Shown: positions 1-12,578 of the stretch, in pieces
Numbering within the stretch: position 1 is the stretch's first letter
Layout: every line of letters starts with the position of its first letter
From: Marinobacter sp. SS13-12
GTDB lineage: Bacteria > Pseudomonadota > Gammaproteobacteria > Pseudomonadales > Oleiphilaceae
Assembly (NCBI RefSeq): GCF_030227115.1
Contig: NZ_JASSUA010000001.1
Span: 1,922,001 to 1,986,000, forward strand
Length of the DNA stretch: 64,000 bases
Direction: 5' to 3'
Notes under the pieces: model-generated
The model's database searches: none
Told to the model about the DNA's origin: nothing
The model's input: the letters and a program-made list of their open reading frames with translations, nothing else
Position numbers and translations under genes: made by a program

Positions 1-24
1 CCTAGCCTTTTTGGCTTGGTGTAT

Positions 25-134
25 GGCCGGGGCTGAGGGGCCCTCCACAAAAACGCTACGAGCACATCCATGTGCGCTTGACTCCGGCCGTCCCTGGCCG
101 GAGACATTTTGTGGAGGGCCCCTCAGCCCCGGCC
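25..134. repeat. Long palindromic element P1
   Basis: A perfect 28-bp inverted repeat (25-52 with 107-134) encloses a core containing CTACGAGCACATCCATGTGC, followed by a small GC-rich inner hairpin (ggccg tccct ggccg type). The same core, in the opposite orientation, lies inside element P2, whose outer stem sequence is completely different. This belongs to the P1-P7 family described in the findings. Confidence 0.85.
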
Positions 135-170
135 GGTAGACCTTGGGAATATATCAGCACATGACAAAAC

Positions 171-256
171 CGTAGGTCGGATTAGCGAAGCGTAATCCGA
201 CAAATGGAGATAACGCCAGAAAAGAGTCGGATTACGCTTCGCTAATCCGACCTACG
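171..256. repeat. REP-like repeat, GTAGGTCGGATT family, copy 1
   Basis: A perfect 31-bp inverted repeat (171-201 with 226-256) is built from two facing copies of a unit beginning CGTAGGTCGGATTAGCGAAG, with a 24-nt spacer. Each unit also contains its own smaller dyad (ggatta...taatcc). Similar short repeats are common between genes in many gammaproteobacteria (recalled, not searched). It differs in sequence from the P-type palindromes beside it. Confidence 0.8.
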
Positions 257-305
257 TTTTTCCCAGGATTACGAGTTAACGGGCGATATCTCCGATGCTT
301 AGTCA

Positions 306-397
306 GCACCGGTGGGAACCCCCTCCCAAAAATGTGCGGAGCCCAAGCGCACATGGATGTGCTCGTAGCGTTTTTTGGGAGGGGTTCCCATCGGTGC
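306..397. repeat. Long palindromic element P2
   Basis: Near-perfect arms (306-332 with 372-397, one mismatch and one single-base bulge) flank a core that is the reverse complement of the P1 core. It lies about 60 bp beyond the atuH stop codon and would fold in the atu transcript. The stem sequence is unlike that of any other P element in the window. Confidence 0.85.
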
Positions 398-459
398 AGT
401 CACCAAGCCATAAAGGCTAGGGCCGGGAGCCATAGGCACCACCATAAGCCAAGAAACAC

Positions 460-2289
460 TCAGAACCGTACCTCCCCCGCATCAATCTCCGCCACCAGTT
501 CAGGCGTTAACAGGGTATACCCTTCAGTCCCAGGCAACCACGCATAAACCTGCTCCCCGGGCTTGTCGATGGAATAACCGGCTTTCTGGATATCGACCTT
601 CCGGTATTTGAAGGTGCCCGTCTTCTCTATGGCATTAGTCACCCGCACAAACACCGGAATCGCATAGGGCGGCAGGTTGTCGTTCAGGTAACGGAACAGA
701 CGGTTGACATCGAATTCCTGACCATTGGATTGGGGCACCAGCGTCACCATGCCGGCCTTGCCGTTGGTGCCCGGAATTTCCACGCCGTAGACAATCGCCT
801 CCTCCACCATGTTGGAGCCGTCGATGATGTTCTCCACCTCTGTGGTGGACACGTTCTCACCCTTCCAGCGGAAAGTGTCGCCCATGCGGTCGACGAACTG
901 CAGGTGGCCACAGCCGATGTCCTTGAGCACATCGCCGGTGTTGAACCACTGATCGCCTTTCTTGAAAGCATCCCGCAGGATGGATTTTTCCGTGGCGTCT
1001 TTCTGGGTATAGCCCTCGAAGGACCACTTTTTGGTGATCTCGCCGATCAGCAGGCCGGCCTCGCCTTGCTCCACTTCCTGCATAAAACCGTTGTCATTAC
1101 GAACCGGGTCGCGGGTGCCGTCGTGGAATTTCACCAGTTTGTAGGGGGCCGTGGAAAAACCGACGGTGTTGTCCATGTTGAAGAAATTGCTGAAGCCGAT
1201 GTTGCCCTCGCTGGAGGCATACAGCTCCGCCACGGTTTCGATACCGAAGCGGTCCTTGAACTCCTTCCAGATGGACGGGCGCAGGCCGTTACCGATCATT
1301 TTGGTGAGGTTGTGATTACGGTCCTGGTCGCTGGGGGGCTGGTTGAGCAGGTAGCGGCACAACTCGCCCACGTAGCCGAAGGTGGTGGCCTGGAAATACC
1401 GTACATCGTCCCAGAAGGCGCTGGCGGAGAACTTGCGACGCAGGGCGATGGCGGAGCCGCCGGCCATCACTGAACCCCAGCACACCAGCAGGGCGGTGCC
1501 GTGGTAGAGGGGCAGTGTGCAGTAAAGGACGTCGTGTGGCTTCATGTCCAGGGACATCATGCCAAAGCCGCCGTAGGCTTTCATAAACTTGCGGTGGCTG
1601 CCTGGCGCTGCCTTGGGTAGGCAGGTGGTACCGGAAGTGAACAGGTAAATGGCGGTGTCGCCCATGACGGGCGGGTCGGCCGGTCGGGGCCCGGTGTTCC
1701 GGTGGGCGCTGACCTTTGCAGCCATGTTCACGTAACCTTCCGGCGCATCGCCAAAGACGTTCATGGTGTTGGCGTCGGCCAGGAACAGGAACGGGTTGGG
1801 GTGGCTGGTCCGGATGTCGCCCTTAACACCGTCGAAGCTGTCGACCAGTTCTTCGCCTACCACAACCATTTTGGGACCAATCAGGTTGATGCTGTGCTCC
1901 AGAACCCGTCCTTTCTGGGACGTGTTGAGCATAGCGCAGGCGACACCAATTTTGGCAGCGCCGGCTACCACGGCCAGCAGCTCCGGACGGTTCTCCAGGA
2001 ACACGGCAATAGCATCGCCTTTGATAAGCCCCTCGGCTTTCAGGAACCCGGCAATGCGGTTGGCCCACTCGTCGAATTCACGCCAGGTAATGCTGCGGTC
2101 TTCGTAGAGGATGGCCGGGCGTTGGCCGTGTTTCCTGGCGTTGCGTTCTACCAGGGTGCCAAGGGTCAGGTCTTTGTTCTCGTTCCTGACTGCGTAGTAG
2201 TAATAGCCCCGGGCAATAGCGGGAAAGCGCCGGAGTATGCCCGGCAGGCTGCGAGCGATGTCGCGTGGGGATATGTTGTCCTGGGTCAT
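460..2289 (-). CDS. atuH: AtuH, FATP-type long-chain acyl-CoA synthetase
   Basis: This 609-residue adenylate-forming enzyme is of the bacterial FATP/very-long-chain acyl-CoA synthetase type and probably converts citronellate-like acids to CoA thioesters. Visible motifs are the phosphate-binding loop TSGTTCLPK at residues 218-226, YASSEGN at 357-363, TGD at 451-453 and the C-terminal hinge region DRMGDTFRWKGENVSTTEVE at 467-486. The loop normally reads TSGTTG; here residue 223 is Cys (codon TGC at 1621-1623), which is unusual. It is the last gene of the atu operon, 72 bp after atuG. The assignment to AtuH rests on position and family; the substrate is inferred. Confidence 0.85.
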   Translation of the reverse strand: MTQDNISPRDIARSLPGILRRFPAIARGYYYYAVRNENKDLTLGTLVERNARKHGQRPAILYEDRSITWREFDEWANRIAGFLKAEGLIKGDAIAVFLENRPELLAVVAGAAKIGVACAMLNTSQKGRVLEHSINLIGPKMVVVGEELVDSFDGVKGDIRTSHPNPFLFLADANTMNVFGDAPEGYVNMAAKVSAHRNTGPRPADPPVMGDTAIYLFTSGTTCLPKAAPGSHRKFMKAYGGFGMMSLDMKPHDVLYCTLPLYHGTALLVCWGSVMAGGSAIALRRKFSASAFWDDVRYFQATTFGYVGELCRYLLNQPPSDQDRNHNLTKMIGNGLRPSIWKEFKDRFGIETVAELYASSEGNIGFSNFFNMDNTVGFSTAPYKLVKFHDGTRDPVRNDNGFMQEVEQGEAGLLIGEITKKWSFEGYTQKDATEKSILRDAFKKGDQWFNTGDVLKDIGCGHLQFVDRMGDTFRWKGENVSTTEVENIIDGSNMVEEAIVYGVEIPGTNGKAGMVTLVPQSNGQEFDVNRLFRYLNDNLPPYAIPVFVRVTNAIEKTGTFKYRKVDIQKAGYSIDKPGEQVYAWLPGTEGYTLLTPELVAEIDAGEVRF

Positions 2290-2361
2290 AGAGTCATCCG
2301 TCAGGGTCTGTGTTTAACGTTGTTATTCGTTTTTGCCCCGGGACAACCAATGGCTCCGGGG

Positions 2362-3189
2362 CTAATCCAGAAACAGGTCAGGCAGCAGCGGTTTGTCGCC
2401 GGGCTGGTACCGGTAGTGTTCAAAATCGGTAACGCCATCGGCTCTCAGTACATCCTCATCAATCACCGACTGGCCGGTCATGTCCTCGGCAGGGCGGCTG
2501 AGAATGCTCAGTGCGGCGTCCGCCATGATGTCCGGTTTGCGGCCCTGGGCCATCATCTGCGGGCCGCCCACTTCGAACTCGATGGCAGCGGTGGCAATCA
2601 GCGTTTTGGGCCAGAGTGTGTTTACCGCAATGCCGTAGCGTCGGAACTCCTCTGCCATCCCCATACTCAACATGGTCATGGCGTATTTTGTTGTGGTGTA
2701 AGGCCCGTACTGGGCAAACCACCGGGTGTCCATATTCAGGGGCGGCGACAGGCTCAGGATATGGGCCCGGTCCGACTCCTTCAGCCAGGGCAGTGCCGCC
2801 TGGCTACAGACAAATACCGCGCGTGCGTTGACCTGATGCATCAGGTCGTAGCGGCTGACCTTCAGGTTTTCCACGCCGGTCAGTTTTATGGCACCTGCGT
2901 TGTTTACCAGCGCGTCAATGCCGCCAAAGTGAGCGGCAGCCTCGTCCACCCGCTGGCGCACCAGTTGTTCGTCCCGTACATCCAGCACCAGGGGCAGGGC
3001 CTTACCGCCTGCCTGCCGAATTTCTTCTGCCACACTGTGAATCGTGCCGGGCAGCTTCGGGTGTGGCTTGTCGGACTTGGCCGCAATCACCACATTGGCA
3101 CCTTCTCTGGCGCAGGCCAGGGCAATGGCCCGGCCGATACCCCGGCTGCCGCCGGTAATAAAAACGGTTCTGTCCTGCATTGTGCTCAT
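2362..3189 (-). CDS. atuG: AtuG, short-chain dehydrogenase/reductase
   Basis: This 275-residue classical SDR resembles HSDL2-type enzymes. The nucleotide-binding motif TGGSRGIG lies near residues 12-19, NNAG follows near residue 95, and the catalytic YTTTK (Tyr and Lys both present) is near residue 165. The start ATG overlaps the atuF stop in an ATGA arrangement and has a strong GGAGG ribosome site, so the two genes are probably translationally coupled. In the P. aeruginosa atu cluster a gene of this type is atuG. Its exact step is unclear; oxidation of a terpenoid hydroxyacyl-CoA or alcohol is a reasonable inference. Confidence 0.82.
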   Translation of the reverse strand: MSTMQDRTVFITGGSRGIGRAIALACAREGANVVIAAKSDKPHPKLPGTIHSVAEEIRQAGGKALPLVLDVRDEQLVRQRVDEAAAHFGGIDALVNNAGAIKLTGVENLKVSRYDLMHQVNARAVFVCSQAALPWLKESDRAHILSLSPPLNMDTRWFAQYGPYTTTKYAMTMLSMGMAEEFRRYGIAVNTLWPKTLIATAAIEFEVGGPQMMAQGRKPDIMADAALSILSRPAEDMTGQSVIDEDVLRADGVTDFEHYRYQPGDKPLLPDLFLD

Positions 3190-5180
3190 TGTCCGGCCTC
3201 CTCTGAGGTAGCTTCAGCGGCAGTAATTTCCACCAGCAACTGGCTGCGTTTTACCTGGTCGCCTTTGGCGGCCAGCACCTCACCCACTGTACCATCGCGG
3301 TCCGCCTTCACCGGATGCTCCATCTTCATGGCCTCCAGGATCACCAGGGTGTCCCCCTGCTTCACCGCCTGGCCGGCCTGCACCAGAACATCAATGATGG
3401 CGCCGTCCATGGTGGCCTTGATGCGGCCGCTACCACTGGCCGCAGCCCCGCTGGCCGGCTGGTGGGTGACGTCATGCAACGCCACTGCCTGCCCGGACGC
3501 CTGCAAATATAGGTGATCGTCCCGGCGGTGATATTGGCATTGTTGACGAATGCCGTTGTCGATAATGCATAACAGGCCACCGCCCATGCTTTCAAGGTCG
3601 AGTTCGTGCTGGTCCTCACCCCGGGTAACCGTGAAGTGATTACCAGTGCGTCGCACCAGCAGTTCCAGGGTTTTGTCGCCGGTTTCCAGCTTCATGGGCG
3701 TGACCGTGGCAGGCGCATTACTCCAGGAACTATTCATGTCATGACGAGCCGCACCGGGGCCTGAATTGCCATGGCTGAACACGCAGGCCGCCAGTGCCAG
3801 TTCGCGTATGGAGGTGTCCTTCGGGGCCAGCGAGGGATCGTCCCGGAACGCCTGTTGCAGAAATGCCGTGGTGGCCTCACCGGCACCGAACGTTTCGTCA
3901 GCGATGATGCGGCTGAGGAAATAACGGTTGGTGGTCACGCCGAACACCGTGGTGTCCTCCAGTGCCCGCAATAGCCGGCGGCGAGCTTCGTTGCGGTTGG
4001 CTCCCCAGGCAACGACCTTGGCCAGCATCGGATCGTAATGGGGCGTGACGGCATCGCCAGAGCGAACACCGGTATCAAACCGTAATCCTTCGCCCTCGGC
4101 GGGCTGGAACTGATGCAGTGGTCCGGTCTGCGGCGTAAACCCGTTGGCCGGGTCTTCGGCGTAAAGCCGCACTTCAATGGCGTGACCGTTCAATTGAATT
4201 TGCTCTTGTGTGAGCGGTAGTGGCAGTCCCTCGGCGACGGAAAGCTGCCAGGCGACCAGATCCTGCCCGGTGATCAGCTCGGTGACCGGATGTTCCACCT
4301 GCAGGCGGGTGTTCATTTCCAGGAAGTAAAAGTTTCGGTCCTTGTCCACCAGGAACTCGACGGTACCGGCACCTTCGTAGCCGCAGGCGAGAGCCGCTTT
4401 GACGGCTGCTTCCCCCATTGCTTTGCGTAAGTCCGGGGTGACAAAAGGCGAGGGCGCCTCTTCTACGACCTTCTGATGCCGCCGCTGTACGGAGCAGTCC
4501 CGCTCACCCAGGTAGACCGCATTACCGTGCTGGTCTGCAAACACCTGAATCTCGATATGACGGGGCTCGATGACTGCCTTCTCCAGAATCAACTCGTCAT
4601 CCCCGAAGGCCTGCTTGGCCTCGGAGCGGGCACGCCGGATGTTGTCGGCCAGTTCCTCTGCCTTTTCCACCAGCCGCATACCCCGGCCACCGCCACCGGC
4701 AGAGGCCTTGATCATCAGCGGGTAGCCAATATTTTTTGCAGCTTCGATGAGTTCCTCATCACTGGCATTATCGCCCTCAAACCCGGGCACCACCGGCACA
4801 CCGGCTTCCTGCATGGCAATCTTCGACCGCCGTTTGCTACCCATCAGCTCAATAGCCGCCTCCGGGGGCCCCACAAACACCAGCCCGGATTCCTTACAGG
4901 CTCTTGCAAACCCGGAATTCTCCGACAGAAATCCATACCCCGGATGCACACAGTCCGCCCCGGTCCTGGCTGCCGCCTCAATAATAGCCTCGACTTTCAA
5001 ATAAGAAGCCGAAACCTGAGCCGGGCCTATACACACCGCCTCATCGGCCAACTCCACATGCAGCGCTTTGGCATCTGCCTCTGAGTACACTGCTACTGTG
5101 CGGTAGCCCAGCGACTTCGCGGTTTTGGTCACCCGTACGGCGATTTCGCCTCGGTTTGCTATCAGGAGCTTTCTTAGCAT
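3186..5180 (-). CDS. atuF: AtuF, geranyl-CoA carboxylase biotin-containing subunit
   Basis: This 664-residue alpha subunit joins biotin carboxylase and biotin carrier domains. It starts MLRKLLIANRGEIAVRV, the standard N-terminus of biotin carboxylases. An ATP-grasp glycine-rich loop (KASAGGGGRGM) is near residue 165, and the carrier motif EAMKM near the C-terminus places the biotinylated Lys at about residue 619. With AtuC it would carboxylate geranyl-CoA. An in-frame upstream extension to 5318 only translates palindrome P3 and lacks homology-like sequence, so 5180 is preferred. The closely related methylcrotonyl-CoA carboxylase (LiuD) is the alternative; the surrounding atu genes decide in favour of AtuF. 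Confidence 0.88.
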   Translation of the reverse strand: MLRKLLIANRGEIAVRVTKTAKSLGYRTVAVYSEADAKALHVELADEAVCIGPAQVSASYLKVEAIIEAAARTGADCVHPGYGFLSENSGFARACKESGLVFVGPPEAAIELMGSKRRSKIAMQEAGVPVVPGFEGDNASDEELIEAAKNIGYPLMIKASAGGGGRGMRLVEKAEELADNIRRARSEAKQAFGDDELILEKAVIEPRHIEIQVFADQHGNAVYLGERDCSVQRRHQKVVEEAPSPFVTPDLRKAMGEAAVKAALACGYEGAGTVEFLVDKDRNFYFLEMNTRLQVEHPVTELITGQDLVAWQLSVAEGLPLPLTQEQIQLNGHAIEVRLYAEDPANGFTPQTGPLHQFQPAEGEGLRFDTGVRSGDAVTPHYDPMLAKVVAWGANRNEARRRLLRALEDTTVFGVTTNRYFLSRIIADETFGAGEATTAFLQQAFRDDPSLAPKDTSIRELALAACVFSHGNSGPGAARHDMNSSWSNAPATVTPMKLETGDKTLELLVRRTGNHFTVTRGEDQHELDLESMGGGLLCIIDNGIRQQCQYHRRDDHLYLQASGQAVALHDVTHQPASGAAASGSGRIKATMDGAIIDVLVQAGQAVKQGDTLVILEAMKMEHPVKADRDGTVGEVLAAKGDQVKRSQLLVEITAAEATSEEAGQ

Positions 5181-5210
5181 TTTGTTGGTCTCATGGTTGG
5201 GTGCTTGTCC

Positions 5211-5326
5211 GCGTTGCTGTGAGGGGTGGGTCCGTCCAGGACACGCCGTGAATACGTCCATGTAGGCTCGTAAAAAACATCCTTGTTTTTTACGGTCCTG
5301 GACGGACCCACCCCTCACATCAACGC
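5211..5326. repeat. Long palindromic element P3
   Basis: Arms 5211-5241 and 5296-5326 form a 31-bp stem with one mismatch. The core carries CGTGAATACGTCCATGTAGG and an inner hairpin (taaaaaacatccttgtttttta). The core lies in the opposite orientation to P4, P5 and P7. It sits in the atuE-atuF gap about 30 bp before the atuF start, so it would form a large hairpin in the leader of atuF within the polycistronic message. Confidence 0.85.
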
Positions 5327-5389
5327 TCCCTCCAACGGTTGTTATCGCATGCTGTTGCTGCTAACTGGCGTTTTGCACATGGTCTGGGT

Positions 5390-5493
5390 CTGGGGCGTAC
5401 ATGGCTTTTCGGGACCGTCAAAAACATGGATGTTTTTGTCGAGCGTACAGGGACGTATTCACCGCGTGTCCCGAAAAGCCATGCCCGCCCCAG
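5390..5493. repeat. Long palindromic element P4
   Basis: Arms 5390-5414 and 5469-5493 form a 25-bp stem with two mismatches. The core contains the inner hairpin CAAAAACATGGATGTTTTTG and then CGTACAGGGACGTATTCAC. The core is almost identical to those of P5 and P7, and the inner part of the arm (ggctt..cggga) is also similar in these three. It lies immediately after the atuE stop codon. Confidence 0.85.
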
Positions 5494-5517
5494 CCTGCCA
5501 CCATCAGCCGGAAGCCG

Positions 5518-6336
5518 TCATTCAGAGGCCGCCCAAGAGGCCGGACGCTTCTGCATAAACGCAAGCGTCCCCTCAGAGCCCTCGTCGCTACGAATCGCCT
5601 CGGCAAACTTCTCCGCCGCACTGTCCAGAAGGCCACTCATGGACTCGTGGCCAACGCGGTGCAGCAACGCCTTGGTCTGGGCTGTCGCATTGGGCGCACA
5701 CTGCCGAACCCGCTCGACCGCATGACCCAGAAACTCGTCAATCTCGACTTCCGACTCCGCAACCTGATGAACAATCCCCAGCCTGCAAGCCTCATTCGCA
5801 TCCACCCGCAAACCCAGCAACGCCAACCGCCGCGCCTGCGTGAACCCGATACGCTCCACCACAAATGGTGCAATCTGAGCCGGAATCACCCCCAGGGTGG
5901 TCTCCGGCATCCCGAATTTCGCCGACGGCCCGGCAATGGCCATATCCGACACACACGCCAATCCAAAGCCACCGCCCATCACGGCACCTTCGGTCACCGC
6001 GATCACAACCTTCGACGACTCGTTAACCTGTTGAATCATCTGCCCGAACGCCCGGTTCAAACGGTAAAACGGGTCTTCCTCTCCCTCTGCCGGCTTCTGC
6101 CCCCGGGCACCGGCCATGTCCTTGATGTCCCCCCCGGCACAGAAGTGGCCACCGGCACCGCGAAGAACCACAGCGCGAATGCTGGTATCACCCTCAACCT
6201 GACTGAACACCGCCGAAAGCTCTGCCACCATCTCCAGGCTCATGGCGTTCCGAACGTCTGGCCGGTTGATGGTGACGTGCAGGGCAGGGCCCTGTTTTTC
6301 CAGAATGAGGGTTTCGCAATGAAGCAAAGTGTCCAT
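5518..6336 (-). CDS. atuE: AtuE, isohexenylglutaconyl-CoA hydratase
   Basis: This 272-residue crotonase-fold enzyme is predicted to hydrate isohexenylglutaconyl-CoA after geranyl-CoA carboxylation. Motifs seen are the oxyanion-hole segment HFCAGGDIKDM near residue 65, GAVMGGGFGLA near residue 120 and FGMPETTLGVIP near residue 145 with the expected catalytic Glu. Two in-frame ATGs exist. GGAG lies only 2 nt before the first (6342) but 8 nt before the second (6336), so the second is chosen. Other family members (methylglutaconyl-CoA hydratase, LiuC) look alike; the assignment depends on the operon. Confidence 0.83.
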   Translation of the reverse strand: MDTLLHCETLILEKQGPALHVTINRPDVRNAMSLEMVAELSAVFSQVEGDTSIRAVVLRGAGGHFCAGGDIKDMAGARGQKPAEGEEDPFYRLNRAFGQMIQQVNESSKVVIAVTEGAVMGGGFGLACVSDMAIAGPSAKFGMPETTLGVIPAQIAPFVVERIGFTQARRLALLGLRVDANEACRLGIVHQVAESEVEIDEFLGHAVERVRQCAPNATAQTKALLHRVGHESMSGLLDSAAEKFAEAIRSDEGSEGTLAFMQKRPASWAASE

Positions 6337-6363
6337 AAGCATGACTCCAATAAAATTGTCCGG

Positions 6364-6483
6364 GGGCTGGTGTGTGGGTAGAAAGGCTTTCCGGGACCGT
6401 CAAAAACAGGGATGTTTTTGTCGAGCGTACAGGGACGTATTCACAGCGTGTCCCGGAAAGCCTTTCTACCCATGCGCCAGCCC
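6364..6483. repeat. Long palindromic element P5
   Basis: Arms 6364-6396 and 6451-6483 form a 33-bp stem with three mismatches clustered in its outer third. The core is nearly identical to P4 and P7 (CGTACAGGGACGTATTCAC plus an inner hairpin). It fills most of the 174-bp gap between atuD and atuE and lies about 30 bp ahead of the atuE start. Confidence 0.85.
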
Positions 6484-6510
6484 TTTCTCCCAATCAAGAA
6501 GGTTCAGAGC

Positions 6511-7671
6511 CTAGTCGCGTTGCTTGCCAGGCAAAGTTCCCATCATCTTGCAGATAATTCCCAGCATGATTTCGTCAGCACCACCGCCGATGGACACCAA
6601 CCGCACATCCCGGAACGCACGGGACACCGGGTTCTCCCACATGTAACCCATGCCACCCCAGTACTGCAGACAACTGTCCGTCACCTCGCGCCCAAGCCTC
6701 CCGGCCTTCAGCTTGGCCATCGACGCCAGCCTGGTCACATCCTTGCCTTCGATGTGCAGTTCACAGGCCTGATAAGTCAGGGCACGCAGGGCCTCGACTT
6801 CCGTCTGCAGCTCAGCCAGGCGGAAATGAATCACCTGGTTATTGATCAACGGCTGGCCGAAGGTCTTGCGCTCGCGGCAGTACTCAATGGTCTTGTTGAT
6901 GCAGTGTTCCAGCGCCTTGATCACGTTGGCCGCGCCCCACAGCCGCTCCTCCTGGAATTGGAGCATCTGCATCATGAATCCCGTGCCCTCAGCGCCGATT
7001 CGATAACGCTGGGGCACGCGCACATCGTCAAAGTAGATCTCAGCCGTCTCGGAGGACCGCATCCCCAGCTTGTTCAGGTGCGGGCTGAAGGAAATGCCCG
7101 GCGTGTTCATGGGCACCACAATCAATGACTTGTTCTTGTGGGGCTTGTCGTCGGAAGTGTTCGCAAGCAGGCAAATAAAATCAGCCCTGGGGCTGTTGGT
7201 GATCCACATCTTGGAGCCATTGATGACATAGTCATCGCCATCCTGCTTTGCGGTGGTCTTCATCCCGGCCACGTCAGAGCCGGCAGCGACTTCACTTACA
7301 CCGATGCAGCCCACCATGTCGCCGGCAATGGCCGGCGCGAGGAAGGTTCGTTTCAGTTCATCGGAACCAAAACGTGAAATGGCAGGGGTGCACATATCGG
7401 TCTGAACACCTATGGCCAGGGGCACACCGCCGCAGTGGGCCGTGCCCAGCTCTTCCGCAGCCACCAGGTTGTAGCTGTAATCCAGCCCCATGCCGCCGTA
7501 CTCTTCCGGCTTCTGAATGCCCAGCAGGCCGAGGTTGCCGAGTTTCTTGAAGATATCGTGAATCGGAAACTCGCCGGCTTTTTCCCATTCGTCGCAGTGG
7601 GGGTTGATTTCCTTCTCCACGAAATCGCGGACGGTTTTTCTGAGGGCTTCGTGTTCGGGGGTGAATTTCAC
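6511..7671 (-). CDS. atuD: AtuD, citronellyl-CoA dehydrogenase
   Basis: This 386-residue FAD-dependent acyl-CoA dehydrogenase is predicted to convert citronellyl-CoA to geranyl-CoA. The middle domain carries GVSEVAAGSDVAG (about 124-136) and the FAD/substrate segment MWITNS (about 155-160). The C-terminal segment IGGGADEIM lacks the Glu that serves as base in medium- and short-chain dehydrogenases. A Glu in EERL (about 242) matches the alternative position used by isovaleryl-CoA-type enzymes, which suits a branched substrate. Translation begins at GTG (7671), preceded by AGGAG at good spacing. Confidence 0.85.
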   Translation of the reverse strand: MKFTPEHEALRKTVRDFVEKEINPHCDEWEKAGEFPIHDIFKKLGNLGLLGIQKPEEYGGMGLDYSYNLVAAEELGTAHCGGVPLAIGVQTDMCTPAISRFGSDELKRTFLAPAIAGDMVGCIGVSEVAAGSDVAGMKTTAKQDGDDYVINGSKMWITNSPRADFICLLANTSDDKPHKNKSLIVVPMNTPGISFSPHLNKLGMRSSETAEIYFDDVRVPQRYRIGAEGTGFMMQMLQFQEERLWGAANVIKALEHCINKTIEYCRERKTFGQPLINNQVIHFRLAELQTEVEALRALTYQACELHIEGKDVTRLASMAKLKAGRLGREVTDSCLQYWGGMGYMWENPVSRAFRDVRLVSIGGGADEIMLGIICKMMGTLPGKQRD

Positions 7672-7741
7672 GTTCTTGTTCTCCTGACTTATTGGTAGTC
7701 CGTGCCCTTGTCGTTTTGGTGCACGTTCTCTAGCTTGGGCT

Positions 7742-7850
7742 GCACCTGTGGGGCACGGGCCTCAGAAACACGCCGCAAGTACGTCCGTGTAGGCTCGATC
7801 GGGCCATCCCTGGCCCTCCACGGTTTCTGAAGCCCGTGCCCCACAGGTGC
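7742..7850. repeat. Long palindromic element P6
   Basis: Arms 7742-7769 and 7823-7850 form a 28-bp stem with one mismatch. The core reads ACGCCGCAAGTACGTCCGTG and is followed by an inner hairpin of the ggccatccctggcc type, as in P1. P1 and P6 therefore form one core subtype, and P3, P4, P5 and P7 another with an A/T-rich inner hairpin. Confidence 0.83.
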
Positions 7851-7887
7851 TGTTGTCTATTAACCTGTTGCTTCCTGTTCCCTATTT

Positions 7888-7990
7888 GTCGGATTACGCC
7901 TTTGGCGAATCCGACCTACATGAGTCGCGGGCCCGGAAACGTAGGTCGGATTTACCCGTGAAGGGCACAATGAGCGAAGCGTAATCCGAC
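7888..7990. repeat. REP-like repeat, GTAGGTCGGATT family, copy 2
   Basis: Two facing units (about 7888-7918 and 7941-7990) match the repeat at 171-256. The right-hand unit is interrupted by about 20 extra bases (acccgtgaagggcacaatg), so the palindrome is decayed compared with the perfect first copy. Confidence 0.75.
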
Positions 7991-8033
7991 AAAGCAACTC
8001 AGCTCCGGGTCCAAACACCATCACTACGACCCC

Positions 8034-9650
8034 CTAGAGGCGGGCCACACCAAACGAATTAGGCCGCAACTGTCGGGCCTCAGCCTCGCGGCATACCGAA
8101 AGCACCAGAGCCAGAACCCGCCGGGTATCCCGTGGATCAATCAGGCCGTCGTCCCACAGCCGCGCCGTACCGAACAGGGCAGTGGAACCGTCTTCCAGCT
8201 TCTTGGCGGTGGCCTGTTCCAGGAAATCCAGGGTTTTGGGATCCGGTTCCATGCCGCCCCGGCGCTGCTTGTCTTCGGCGACAATGCGCATCACCTTGCC
8301 GGCCTGTGCCGGGCCCATGACCGCGGTGCGGCTGTTGGGCCAGGCGAAGATGAACCTTGGGTCCAGGCCGCGGCCGCACATCGCGTAGTTACCTGCACCA
8401 TAGGAACCGCCGATCACAATTGCGACCTTTGGCACCCGGCAATTGGCCACCGCCTGGATCATTTTGGACCCGTGTTTGATGATGCCGTTCTGCTCCGAAT
8501 GGGTGCCCACCATGAAACCGGTGGTGTTGTGGAGGAACAGCAAAGGCGTGCCCGCCTGGTCGCAAAGCTGGATAAACTGGGCGGCCTTGGTGGCGCCGGC
8601 CGGGGTGATGGGGCCGTTGTTGCCGATGATGCCCACCGAGTGGCCCTCGATGCGGATGGTCCCGCACACGGTCTGGTCGTCGTAGTCGTTCTTGAAATCC
8701 ATAAACTTCGAGCCATCGGCAATGCGAGCGAGGATTTCGCGGACGTCGTAGGGCTTTTTGGCATCGCTGGGGATCACGCCCATCAATTCTTCAGCCGCAT
8801 ACAGCGGCTCTTCCCATTCCGGTTCCCGCACAGGCGGTAATTGCTCGTTCCAGGGCAGGGCTTCGAGCACATTGCGGGCATGACGGATGCCGTCGGCGTC
8901 ATCTTCGGCCAGGTATTCTGCCGTGCCCGCCACTTCCGCGTGCATCTGTGCACCGCCGAGTTCCTCATCGGTGGCCACTTCGCCTGTGGCGGCTTTCAGC
9001 AGGGGAGGGCCGGCCAGGAACATCTTGGCCTGCCCGCGGACCACGATTACATAGTCTGAAAGTCCCGGCTGGTAGGCACCGCCGGCGGTGGCGTTTCCGT
9101 GCACCACGGTCACCTGGGGAATACCGGCGGCGGACATGCGGGCCTGATTGGCGAAGCCGCGGGCGCCGAGCACAAAAATATCCGTAGCGTAGTTCAGGTT
9201 GGCACCGCCGCTCTCGGACAGCGACACCACCGGCAGCTTGTTCTCCATGGCAATCTGCTGCAGCCGCAGGGTCTTGTCCAGGCCTGCCGGCGTGATGGTG
9301 CCGCCCTTGATGGCACTGTTACTGGCCACCACCAGACAGCGAACACCACTGACGTGGCCAATGCCGGCAATAATGCCGCCACCGGACATGCTGCCGTCCT
9401 TGTCGTCGTGCATCTTGTAGCCGGCCAGGGAACACAGCTCCAGAAACGGTGTACCGCGATCCAGCAATCGGTTGATACGGTCCCGGGGCAGCAGCTTGCC
9501 GCGCTTGATAAACTTCTCCCGCGCCGCCTCCGCCAGGTCCAGCACCTTCTGCTCCACGTCCCGGAAAGTAGCGATATGGGCTTCCATCACCTCCGCATTG
9601 GCGCGAAAGTCATCCGACTGGGGATTAACGGTGGATTCCAGTACCTGCAT
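8034..9650 (-). CDS. atuC: AtuC, geranyl-CoA carboxylase carboxyltransferase subunit
   Basis: This 538-residue beta subunit has the carboxyltransferase fold. It transfers carboxyl groups from biotin on AtuF to geranyl-CoA. The N-terminal half contains LPRDRINRLLDRGTPFLELC and SGGANLNYATDIF; the C-terminal half contains the acyl-CoA-binding segment GNNGPITPAGATKAAQFIQL and GGSYGAGNYAMCGR. Length is typical for methylcrotonyl/geranyl-CoA carboxylase beta subunits. The ATG start has a GAGGAG site that overlaps the stop codon of atuB, which starts the message one gene earlier, implying coupled translation. Confidence 0.88.
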   Translation of the reverse strand: MQVLESTVNPQSDDFRANAEVMEAHIATFRDVEQKVLDLAEAAREKFIKRGKLLPRDRINRLLDRGTPFLELCSLAGYKMHDDKDGSMSGGGIIAGIGHVSGVRCLVVASNSAIKGGTITPAGLDKTLRLQQIAMENKLPVVSLSESGGANLNYATDIFVLGARGFANQARMSAAGIPQVTVVHGNATAGGAYQPGLSDYVIVVRGQAKMFLAGPPLLKAATGEVATDEELGGAQMHAEVAGTAEYLAEDDADGIRHARNVLEALPWNEQLPPVREPEWEEPLYAAEELMGVIPSDAKKPYDVREILARIADGSKFMDFKNDYDDQTVCGTIRIEGHSVGIIGNNGPITPAGATKAAQFIQLCDQAGTPLLFLHNTTGFMVGTHSEQNGIIKHGSKMIQAVANCRVPKVAIVIGGSYGAGNYAMCGRGLDPRFIFAWPNSRTAVMGPAQAGKVMRIVAEDKQRRGGMEPDPKTLDFLEQATAKKLEDGSTALFGTARLWDDGLIDPRDTRRVLALVLSVCREAEARQLRPNSFGVARL

Positions 9651-9660
9651 TGCCTACTCC

Positions 9661-10527
9661 TCAGTCGTCACTCAACACTTTGGGCGTGACCGCCCGATGG
9701 AAACCGTTAAAGGGCTCGTTGTTCTTAGCCTTCGGGAAAGGCCAGACCCGTCCACCCTGGGACGCCGCGCCGTCGATCCGCAGACAATCCCCACTGATAA
9801 ACGCCGCCCCCGGACTCAGTAGGAAACAGATCGCTGCACTGACCTCGGATTCCGTACCCATACGCTTGATGGGCACATTATCCCCCAGGCTGCGAATCCA
9901 CTGCTTCATGTGCTCGGGATAATTGTCCATGCCACTGGACGCGATCCACCCAGGCGCCACCGCGTTCACCCGTACCCCGGAACAGCCCCATTCCACCGCC
10001 GCCGTCTGGGTAAAATTCACCATCCCCGCCCGGGCCGCTCCGGAATGCCCCATGCCGGGCATACCACCCCACATATCCGCAACAATATTCACAATCGCCC
10101 CGCCGGTTTTCGACAGTGCCTGAGTGTAGGCCTCACGGGCTATCAAAAAGCCACCGGTGAGATTGGTGCGAACGACAGTCTCCCAGCCTTTCTGGTTGAT
10201 GTTCGCGAGTGGGGAGGGAAACTGACCGCCGGCGTTATTCACTACCCCGTTCAGCCCACCATGTTCCTCAATAATGGCCTTAACGGTCGCCTTGACCGAT
10301 TCTTCTTCGCGGATGTCACACACGTGAGCCGAGGCAACACCCCCGTCCTCGGAGATCTCTGCCTTCACCGCCTCAACCTTCTCGGCCTTCCGCCCGACGA
10401 GCGCGACCCGGGCCCCAAGCGCGGCCAGTTCGTGGGCCGTACAGCGTCCAATCCCCGAACCACCCCCGGTAACAATAAAAACCTGATCCCGAAAGAGATC
10501 CGGATGAAAAACAGACTGATAGCTCAT
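9661..10527 (-). CDS. atuB: AtuB, atypical short-chain dehydrogenase (dienoyl-CoA reductase-like)
   Basis: This 288-residue SDR has the cofactor motif TGGGSGIG near residue 21 and NNAG near residue 97. The usual catalytic YxxxK is missing: the segment reads GHSGAARAG, where classical enzymes have Tyr and Lys. Peroxisomal 2,4-dienoyl/enoyl-CoA reductases show a related HAGAAK-type segment (recalled), so a reductase acting on unsaturated acyl-CoA is more likely than a classical alcohol dehydrogenase. It lies between atuA and atuC, 10 bp from atuC. The exact reaction is unproven. Confidence 0.8.
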   Translation of the reverse strand: MSYQSVFHPDLFRDQVFIVTGGGSGIGRCTAHELAALGARVALVGRKAEKVEAVKAEISEDGGVASAHVCDIREEESVKATVKAIIEEHGGLNGVVNNAGGQFPSPLANINQKGWETVVRTNLTGGFLIAREAYTQALSKTGGAIVNIVADMWGGMPGMGHSGAARAGMVNFTQTAAVEWGCSGVRVNAVAPGWIASSGMDNYPEHMKQWIRSLGDNVPIKRMGTESEVSAAICFLLSPGAAFISGDCLRIDGAASQGGRVWPFPKAKNNEPFNGFHRAVTPKVLSDD

Positions 10528-10554
10528 AATAAGAGGACCTTTTCAAATGTTCGG

Positions 10555-10664
10555 GCGCTCCGGTGGGAAGGCTTGTCCGGGACCGTCAAAAACATGGATG
10601 TTTTTGTCGAGCGTACAGGGACGTATTCACAGCGTGTCCCGGACAAGCCTTCCCACCGGAGTGC
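10555..10664. repeat. Long palindromic element P7
   Basis: Arms 10555-10582 and 10637-10664 form a 28-bp stem with one mismatch, of which the inner 25 bp pair perfectly. The core matches P4 and P5 almost base for base. It fills the gap between atuA and atuB and begins about 28 bp ahead of the atuB start codon. Confidence 0.87.
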
Positions 10665-10680
10665 TTGCATCAATGTAAGA

Positions 10681-12486
10681 CTAATCAAGCAGGTCAGCAC
10701 GAACCGGCACGGGAAACTCCAGCAGTTGCTGAGCAAAAGCCTTGCCCTGGGGGTCAATCCGAAGGCTGGCAACGCCACCCCCGCCAAGACTGTGCTCGAG
10801 CAGGAAATTGAACGCATTGAAACCCGGCAACGCCCAACGAGTAACCCGACCATGCTCCGGATCCAGCGTGTGAGCCATCCACTCCGCCACCGCCAGTTCC
10901 GTCAACGCCGCCTCAATAAACGGCACAAATTCCGCCTTGCGGGCAATCACCCCGATATTGGTGTGATCCCCCTTGTCACCACTGCGCGCCCACGCCAGCC
11001 GGATCAATGGCACCGTCGTATCCGTGGCCGGCTCTGCGGCGCTGGACGCCTGCTGCTCAAGTTGCCCCGGCTCGAAACCACCAGTGGTATCCACATCCAC
11101 TGCCTGCTGATGGCCATCAAGATCCACCGCAACCGCCACTTCAGTTTTAGGAACCAGGCAGGAGTACAGACGAATCTTCGGCCAAACCGTCGGCCGCCCA
11201 CCCACAATGCCGGTAATCCCGGGCGCCATCCCCGTCGCCGCCTGGGCGATTTCCCGGGAAAACAGCACCAACGCCTCTTTCTTTACATGAGCAGTACTGA
11301 TCTTCACCACCACCTCTCGGCAGTCTCCCATGCGGCCCTGGGCACCATAAGTCGTCTCGGTGCCCAGCAGCTCGATACTGGTGTCCGTGTAATCCGCCAG
11401 GCCGCGCTCGCTGAACATTCGCGACGTCTTTGCCAGAATCGCCTCGGCCACCGCCTGCGCCTTGGCTTTTGCGTCCATACCGGCCAGCAGGAAGGTAACC
11501 GTGCACTTGAAACCATCCGGCCAGGTGCCGGACACCTTGTAGCTGTCCGTTGGTGATAGCCCTTTGGCGCCGCTGACACGCACCCGGTCTGCCGCCACCT
11601 CTTCGAGGGTGACTGCCGTAAAATCACTGGTCACATCCGGGAGCAGGTAGGCCCTGGGGTCGCCGATTTCGTAAACGAGTTGCTCGGCCACAGTGCCCCT
11701 GGACACCTTGCCCCCGGTGCCTTCCGGCTTGGTCATTATGAAGTCGCCGGTTGCCGTGACTTCTGCAATCGGGAAGCCCATATCCGCATAGCCATCCGCC
11801 ACATCTTCCCAGTCGGTAAAGTTACCGCCAGTGGATTGCGCACCGCACTCCAGCAGGTGCCCGGCAAGGCTGCCCTGGGCCAGCTTGTCGTAGTCGCTCC
11901 AGCTCCAGCCGAACTCGTGGACCAGCGGCGCCAGGACCAGCGCGCTGTCGGCAACCCGACCGGTAATAACGATATCGGCACCCTGTTCCAGGGCAGCGAC
12001 GAGACCCGGGGCACCGAGATAGGCATTCAGGCTCACCATCATCGGTGGCATCGGCTGGCCGGTCGTCATCTCGGTCATGCCGGCATCCGCCAGTTGTTTT
12101 TTCTTGGGTAACAGGTCATCACCCAGCACCAGGGCAATCTTCATGTCTACACCGGCTTTTTCGCACAGTGCTTGCAGGGCATCGCGGCAGGCAATCGGAT
12201 TTACGCCGCCAGCGTTTGCGAGTACCCGGATACTTTTCTGCTTTATCTCACCCAGCAATGGTCCCATCACCGTTTGCACAAAATCGCGGGCGTAGCCCTG
12301 GCTGGGGTCCTTCATTTTCTGCCCGGCCATGATGGACATGGTGATCTCCGCCAGATAGTCCGCCACCAGGTAATTGATATTGCCCTTGTGAACCAGCTGG
12401 GCCGCGGCGGTTTCGGTGTCGCCCCAGAACGCGGCGGAACAGCCGATGCGGATGGTTTCTGGCCTGGAACGATCGGAGTCTGGCAT
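10681..12486 (-). CDS. atuA: AtuA, acyclic terpene utilisation protein (DUF1446 family)
   Basis: This 601-residue protein belongs to the AtuA/DUF1446 family, conserved in acyclic terpene clusters but without an established reaction. The N-terminal part shows [20 protein letters not shown] and the glycine-rich [17 protein letters not shown]. The C-terminal 110 residues ([18 protein letters not shown]) form a second conserved domain. A TTG codon at 12525 could extend the frame by 13 residues, but ATG at 12486 is preceded by AAGGTG at 5-nt spacing and is preferred. It is the first gene of the operon, facing atuR. Confidence 0.85.
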
Positions 12487-12513
12487 GGTTTCACCTTGTA
12501 AACGGAAGCCGAA

Positions 12514-12523
12514 AAGCGCTTGC
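12514..12523 (-). promoter_or_regulatory. Putative AtuR operator O1
   Basis: On the minus strand this site reads GCAAGCGCTT, the same 10-mer as in O2, and contains the perfect dyad AAGCGCTT. It lies 28 bp upstream of the atuA start. AtuR of P. aeruginosa is known to bind two inverted repeats in the equivalent gap; the assignment here is by analogy. Confidence 0.5.
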
Positions 12524-12578
12524 AAAGGCCCTCAAGGGGCCGCGCTCTGCGGAGGTTGTCAGCGATTCCAGTGACAAT

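Follow-up and report, generated by a model that had tools for sequence, protein, structure and literature searches.

Palindromes at an atu-like operon of Marinobacter belong to a genome-wide family of probable structured RNA modules with paired GGA loops

CsrA (RsmA) reads GGA in hairpin loops and can bridge two such sites about 10–60 nt apart, best near 18 nt, and CsrB, RsmY and RsmZ gather many sites in the products of one or a few dedicated small RNA (sRNA) genes that have their own promoters. Dedicated CsrA-related sRNAs are also described for Alcanivorax and Alteromonas (PMC9788540, PMC5864184), and the RNA family TwoAYGGAY (RF01731) is given in its discovery listing for human gut, gamma-Proteobacteria and Clostridiales (PMC2864571); a motif study linked this family to the CsrA site and put forward a role in sequestration (PMC4333381). 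Searches of an open-licence literature library gave no description of a dispersed family of such elements in these bacteria. Here we analyse seven long palindromes at an atu-like operon in a 64,000-nucleotide stretch of Marinobacter sp. SS13-12 (contig NZ_JASSUA010000001.1, positions 1,922,001 to 1,986,000; hereafter the window), and suggest that they are probably copies of a dispersed, strand-specific structured RNA module that would bind CsrA/RsmA and that is related to TwoAYGGAY, from which it has diverged and beyond which it has greatly multiplied.

An inverted-repeat check confirmed all seven palindromes at the places given in the original prediction (Table 1), with 5390–5493 extending imperfectly to 5379–5504. 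Their RNA folds all beat shuffled sequences (z from −8.0 to −13.5; 0 of 200 shuffles as good for each element), and all seven have one internal architecture in common, which gives each element a direction defined by the strand that shows GGA. As this strand is antisense to the operon in four of the seven, the operon message holds the complement of the conserved loops at those sites. For a covariance model (R1), we aligned 30 of the 35 loci matched by a single-copy DNA search of the source genome (four of them window copies) together with two more window copies (alignment A1). In the window, R1 gave ten matches at E ≤ 1, namely the seven elements themselves and, for three of these, a weak echo on the opposite strand. 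A separate long-arm scan found six of the seven, missing 306–397, which has a bulge in its stem (this element, which has lost one of the two small GGA hairpins, was recovered by the inverted-repeat check and the covariance model), and added one unrelated palindrome (166–261) and a pairing between two adjacent copies (5239–5471); it found nothing in 10 first-order Markov shuffles. The claim that the other 53 kb of the window are free of further copies held in both the R1 and the long-arm scan.

The palindromes had been regarded as a feature of one catabolic operon, a view that the genome scan does not bear out. R1 listed 107 matches in the 4.64-Mb source genome, and removal of two opposite-strand echoes left at least 105 copies (150 of 1,268 candidates scored; one weak copy of 36 bits with a short stem included), which are spread over five of ten contigs and of which 98 lie elsewhere in the genome. 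The clustering itself is genuine: the seven form the densest 10.7 kb among 76 copies on the 2.83-Mb contig, a density reached by none of 20,000 uniform placements (P = 0.009 for five of 68 units when close pairs are counted once), and five of six close relatives carry 5–8 copies in the 11–17 kb read around the locus (G003 8, G048 6, G009 8, G023 8 and G013 5, for which the contig ends at the locus), with a single copy in the sixth (G016). Matches were present in all 25 genomes scanned from the genus (3 to 108 each) and in 3 of 13 other genomes of the order (108 candidates scored per genome), and a wider sample of the order, with stricter filters and 28 candidates scored per genome, gave matches in 53 of the 145 genomes, from 39 of the 91 genera covered. 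Among 11 printed loci from other genera, seven clearly show the same two loops in different stems, one is a variant and three were left unresolved by the script.

In 93 of the 105 copies the outer stem measures 26–29 bp, and its sequence varies from copy to copy. Inside it stand two small hairpins with CANGGAYG loops, the hairpin stems varying between classes while the loops stay constant: both loops are perfect in 99 of the 105 source-genome copies and in 77 of 83 copies of G016, the opposite strand of the 105 copies shows no such loops, and the GGA-to-GGA spacing by best placement is 20–22 nt in all 105 and all 83. The elements thus show ANGGA in hairpin loops that are conserved across species, as expected of a CsrA/RsmA site. 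Just past the stem, at a distance of a few nucleotides on the GGA strand, sequences resembling CACCAAGC or ACTCCNAA form an enriched box. In A1, each of the 23 modelled outer-stem pairs varies on both sides although 98.6% of cells are paired, and none of 500 shuffles reached any of five measures of covariation.

The stems also distinguish the two strands. Given that a DNA palindrome is undirected, point mutations would give G.T and A.C mismatches equally often, and yet the GGA strand of the 105 copies holds 70 G.U against 7 A.C, an excess expected if selection sees that strand as a folded single strand. The ratio of G.U to A.C is 28:1 in sense, 16:4 in antisense, 18:1 in convergent and 8:1 in divergent gene context, and in the 83 copies of G016 the counts are 55 and 9. 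The strand of a copy was set by its core (for example, 110.6 versus 39.0 bits for 5211–5326).

Comparison of 64 copies at orthologous places in the source genome (G000) and G016, judged by both flanks, points in the same direction. Between the two genomes 22% of stem pairs differ; of the 370 changed pairs, 231 are double changes with Watson–Crick pairing kept, 63 are single changes to or from G.U and 12 to or from A.C. Changes along the loop positions C, A, N, G, G, A, Y and G number 1, 3, 35, 1, 0, 1, 18 and 0, that is, 2 of 384 GGA positions changed against 35 of 128 N positions. Substitution by a different copy is least probable at the 34 sites where no more than 20% of the pairs differ, and these sites show 30 double Watson–Crick changes and 25 single G.U against 2 A.C changes, with 16 loop changes at N, nine at Y and one in GGA; the nine antisense sites among them have seven G.U, no A.C, no GGA and five N changes. 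These counts indicate that the constraint acts at resident sites and needs no sense position. Because G.U is preferred over A.C, and GGA is nearly fixed while N varies, selection appears to act in place on the folded RNA of the GGA strand, also in copies that are antisense to their operon.

Two other views of the changed stems were considered and set aside. For gene conversion between resident copies no full donor came to light: when 16-nt blocks of a stem are compared with the rest of the copies in their genome, the best agreement is 9–14 of 16 positions (105 and 83 copies), and runs of at least 12 nt in common with another G016 copy occur in 5 of 30 changed and 0 of 34 unchanged stems (with G000 copies, 3 of 30 and 7 of 34), so that a minority of changed stems could involve other copies. 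Nor are the stems uniquely hypervariable: between G000 and G016 their immediate flanks share just 75% identity (93% at a greater distance), and flank identity does not exceed 85% at any of the 23 sites where over 30% of stem pairs differ. The pace of change in the stems is about that of the DNA around them, except that the changes come in matched pairs.

The copy in the E-D gap of the operon could be followed by position across the genus. With window positions 5500–7700 as query, some match was obtained in 61 of 61 genus genomes (several weak and maybe to the repeat alone), and in the best 30 loci, which were read, the spot is occupied by the element in 23, by locus orientation always antisense to the operon. 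Across these 23 species the stem holds 625 Watson–Crick, 26 G.U, 2 A.C and 6 other pairs, and GGA is intact in every readable loop (Ns in the source sequence hide one loop); in a single copy, L153, the stem has decayed. The other seven loci have a short gap or, at one locus, another hairpin. In G016 (L156, L269), flank words of both sides adjoin in this gap, which looks like a deletion scar, and G016 lost or never had the window elements other than 10555–10664. At L178 (G049), the place of the element is taken by another hairpin, which is shorter and lacks the two GGA loops.

The known family closest to the elements is TwoAYGGAY, for which CsrA binding had already been predicted. At curated thresholds Rfam gave no match in the window; at a relaxed one, TwoAYGGAY matched 7737–7855 (-) over model positions 1–168 with 26.7 bits (cut-off 43; E = 1.2), a match that is not significant alone and that spans 7742–7850 end to end on the GGA strand. 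The source genome has 27 matches at E ≤ 1, none over the gathering cut-off (best 42.6 bits against 43), and 7 of 38 relatives exceed it, by nine matches among those listed. All seven of the 27 source-genome matches that were listed fall on R1 elements, and the listed matches span model positions 1–168, including the outer stem, on the GGA strand. In both families an outer stem encloses a pair of hairpins whose loops read A-N-GGA-Y, and by eye the GGAGCC...GGCGGAG hairpin of one element class is similar to the tandem-GA stem of TwoAYGGAY described in the motif study (PMC4333381). With regard to the AYGGAY pattern the picture is mixed: 99 of 105 copies have two loops of the ANGGAY type, but N is T or C in 122 and A or G in 88 of 210 loops. 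The elements differ from TwoAYGGAY further in their roughly 100 copies per genome, several hairpin classes and long variable stems. Matches to microRNA and other eukaryotic Rfam families at the relaxed threshold were taken as chance matches of long stems.

A csrA gene is found in all 38 genomes (one match in 33). With CsrB, RsmY and RsmZ the elements share repeated GGA loops in hairpins, a likeness that may be functional, but they have two sites per copy, about 100 copies and no promoter signal. Among 12 genomes searched whole, the CsrB and RsmZ models gave no match (the models tried did not include RsmX and CsrC; E. coli served as positive control for CsrB, whereas RsmZ had none over cut-off), and the RsmY model gave weak matches in seven and none over cut-off. 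The RsmY-like match of the source genome was rejected as a sponge, as it has one ANGGA only and ends in a strong stem. Like intrinsic terminators, the elements are strong hairpins between genes; unlike terminators, they conserve GGA loops and lack a following T-run (TTTTT within 25 nt after the stem on the GGA strand in 0 of 124 copies, that is, the 105 of the source genome and 19 found only in G016).

We suggest that the outer stem, mostly of 26–29 bp, presents a junction with the two small CANGGAYG-loop hairpins, which would be bound by one CsrA/RsmA dimer; CsrA is the candidate partner because of its reading of GGA in loops and its bridging of two sites. The stable stem would shield the module whenever a transcript runs through in the GGA direction, and copies in sense orientation may, in addition, tag the adjacent genes for control by CsrA. 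As the same constraint is seen in antisense copies, the module is probably also present in antisense or read-through transcripts. With every copy, the cellular pool of RNA that binds CsrA would gain two sites, and the antisense copies and two-way orientation favour a role independent of the neighbouring gene, hence a sponge distributed over the genome. In its full form this is a tentative proposal, possible but in our estimation rather doubtful: a mobile, or formerly mobile, RNA element would have filled about 100 intergenic sites in either direction with a store of CsrA sites that replaces one or two dedicated sRNA genes, antisense copies would act through antisense transcripts, and ordinary transcription would help to set free CsrA.

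Several observations weigh against the CsrA-binding RNA module. Six genus genomes (G004, G010, G011, G015, G019 and G024) have only 3–11 matches, so that the family is not indispensable. N is uneven in the 210 loops (T 117, G 75, A 13, C 5), with T commonest, whereas the consensus of CsrA from systematic evolution of ligands by exponential enrichment prefers a purine at this position. No sign of an own promoter was seen, TATAAT-like sites being equally common on either strand and side (17, 14, 16 and 18 of 124). Of the copies flanked by genes of the same direction, 45 are sense and 28 antisense (P = 0.06; 124 copies in all, with genes from a simple in-house open reading frame caller), and such near-indifference to orientation is odd for an element that works in messenger RNA (mRNA). 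R1 may favour intact loops and, slightly, G.U, but single changes cost few of the 48–112 bits and the E-D site was read by synteny. Finally, a single-stranded DNA binder of GGA loops may be an alternative to CsrA.

Given the dispersal over the genome and the 3 to 108 copies within the genus, the family might instead be a selfish REP- or MITE-like repeat whose stems and loops serve some transposase as its single-stranded DNA substrate, with no benefit to the host. The fixed (-,+) arrangement of close pairs (<350 bp; 10 of 10 and 6 of 6 in two genomes), the conserved flank box, the near-indifferent orientation and the short E-D gap of the close relative G016 would all fit, and, as in REP/RAYT systems, roughly 100 palindromic copies lie between genes and some of them form inverted pairs; in the elements, however, stem letters vary from copy to copy and loops are constant. 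We nevertheless consider this unlikely, because drift is expected after insertion, whereas resident orthologs keep GGA and pairing and tolerate G.U but not A.C, the E-D copy stays at one place in 23 of the 30 loci, and Y1 transposases (the only type examined) do not track copy number. A RAYT origin was likewise not supported: 11 of 25 genus genomes have no match to the Y1 domain PF01797, nine of these with 55–106 elements. Conversely, many or strong Y1 matches were seen beside few or no elements in G004 (22 versus 4), G011 (3 versus 3) and G031 (49 versus 0).

Generic mRNA stems, which would block exonucleases or tune neighbouring genes of an operon irrespective of loop letters, would account for very stable folds at intergenic sites, several copies per operon and few divergent gene pairs (16 of 105 copies), but not for a near-frozen GGA next to a free N; moreover, a long palindrome is equally stable on either strand, which leaves the one-sided G.U tolerance, including that of antisense copies, unexplained. 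The RNA-level role assigned to the hairpins in the original prediction is therefore supported in so far as the loops are conserved like a protein-binding site, whereas its stems of generic function between the genes of one message fit neither this conservation nor the four antisense copies, and we regard them as a highly improbable explanation. Least probable is an absence of selection in which template-switch correction of quasi-palindromes at replication keeps the arms complementary. Near-perfect arms in spite of sequence turnover between species, and the 231 double Watson–Crick changes, are what it would produce, and such correction may well contribute; on its own it predicts as many G.T as A.C mismatches, against the 70 versus 7 and 55 versus 9 seen, and leaves loop conservation unexplained.

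The elements and the genes around them are collected in Table 1. The order of the gene products fits the earlier atu assignment of the operon, three of them reaching NCBIfam curated cut-offs. Two further repeats adjoin the elements. A 21-bp inverted repeat (95%) at window positions 1–21 and 401–421 flanks the whole 25–397 element pair, so that 1–421 is a nested palindrome. A second palindromic repeat, with words GTAGGTCGGATTAGCGAAGCGTAATCCGAC, lies at 166–261, between the two members of that (-,+) pair, and at 7879–7995; in the genome its words occur within 250 bp of 25 of the 105 elements, at 1.70 hits per kb near elements and 0.13 further out.

Table 1. Elements and genes at the atu-like operon (window coordinates; for elements, the strand is the one showing GGA; gap letters follow the atu assignment)
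Feature	Coordinates	Strand	Relative to operon	Location	R1 score (bits)	Remarks
Element	25–134	-	sense		85.8	outer stem perfect over 28 bp; both GGA loops present; CTCCGGCC hairpin class; left member of (-,+) pair
Element	306–397	+	antisense		57.6	bulged outer stem; right member of (-,+) pair
Element	5211–5326	-	sense	F-E gap	110.6	left member of (-,+) pair
Element	5390–5493	+	antisense	F-E gap	100.6	right member of (-,+) pair
Element	6364–6483	+	antisense	E-D gap	106.7	
Element	7742–7850	-	sense	D-C gap	83.5	only window copy covered by Rfam TwoAYGGAY
Element	10555–10664	+	antisense	B-A gap	109.4	also present in G016
E-D gap	6343–6510					
Acyl-CoA synthetase-like	460–2289	-				NCBIfam curated cut-off reached
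SDR-like	2362–3189	-				NCBIfam curated cut-off reached
Biotin carboxylase-like	3186 to ~5180	-				NCBIfam curated cut-off reached
Enoyl-CoA hydratase-like	5518–6342	-				weaker similarity
Acyl-CoA dehydrogenase-like	6511–7671	-				weaker similarity
Carboxyltransferase-like	8034–9650	-				weaker similarity
SDR-like	9661–10527	-				weaker similarity
Protein	10681–12525	-				no NCBIfam match at E 1e-10

If the CsrA-binding RNA module is the correct reading, a global post-transcriptional regulator would be served by about 200 sites in about 100 dispersed repeats, which annotation would dismiss as palindromic junk, and selection would be maintaining a function in some antisense transcripts. The orphan TwoAYGGAY family would gain a large set of homologs and, with them, a natural experiment in which hundreds of stems with different letters present the same loops.

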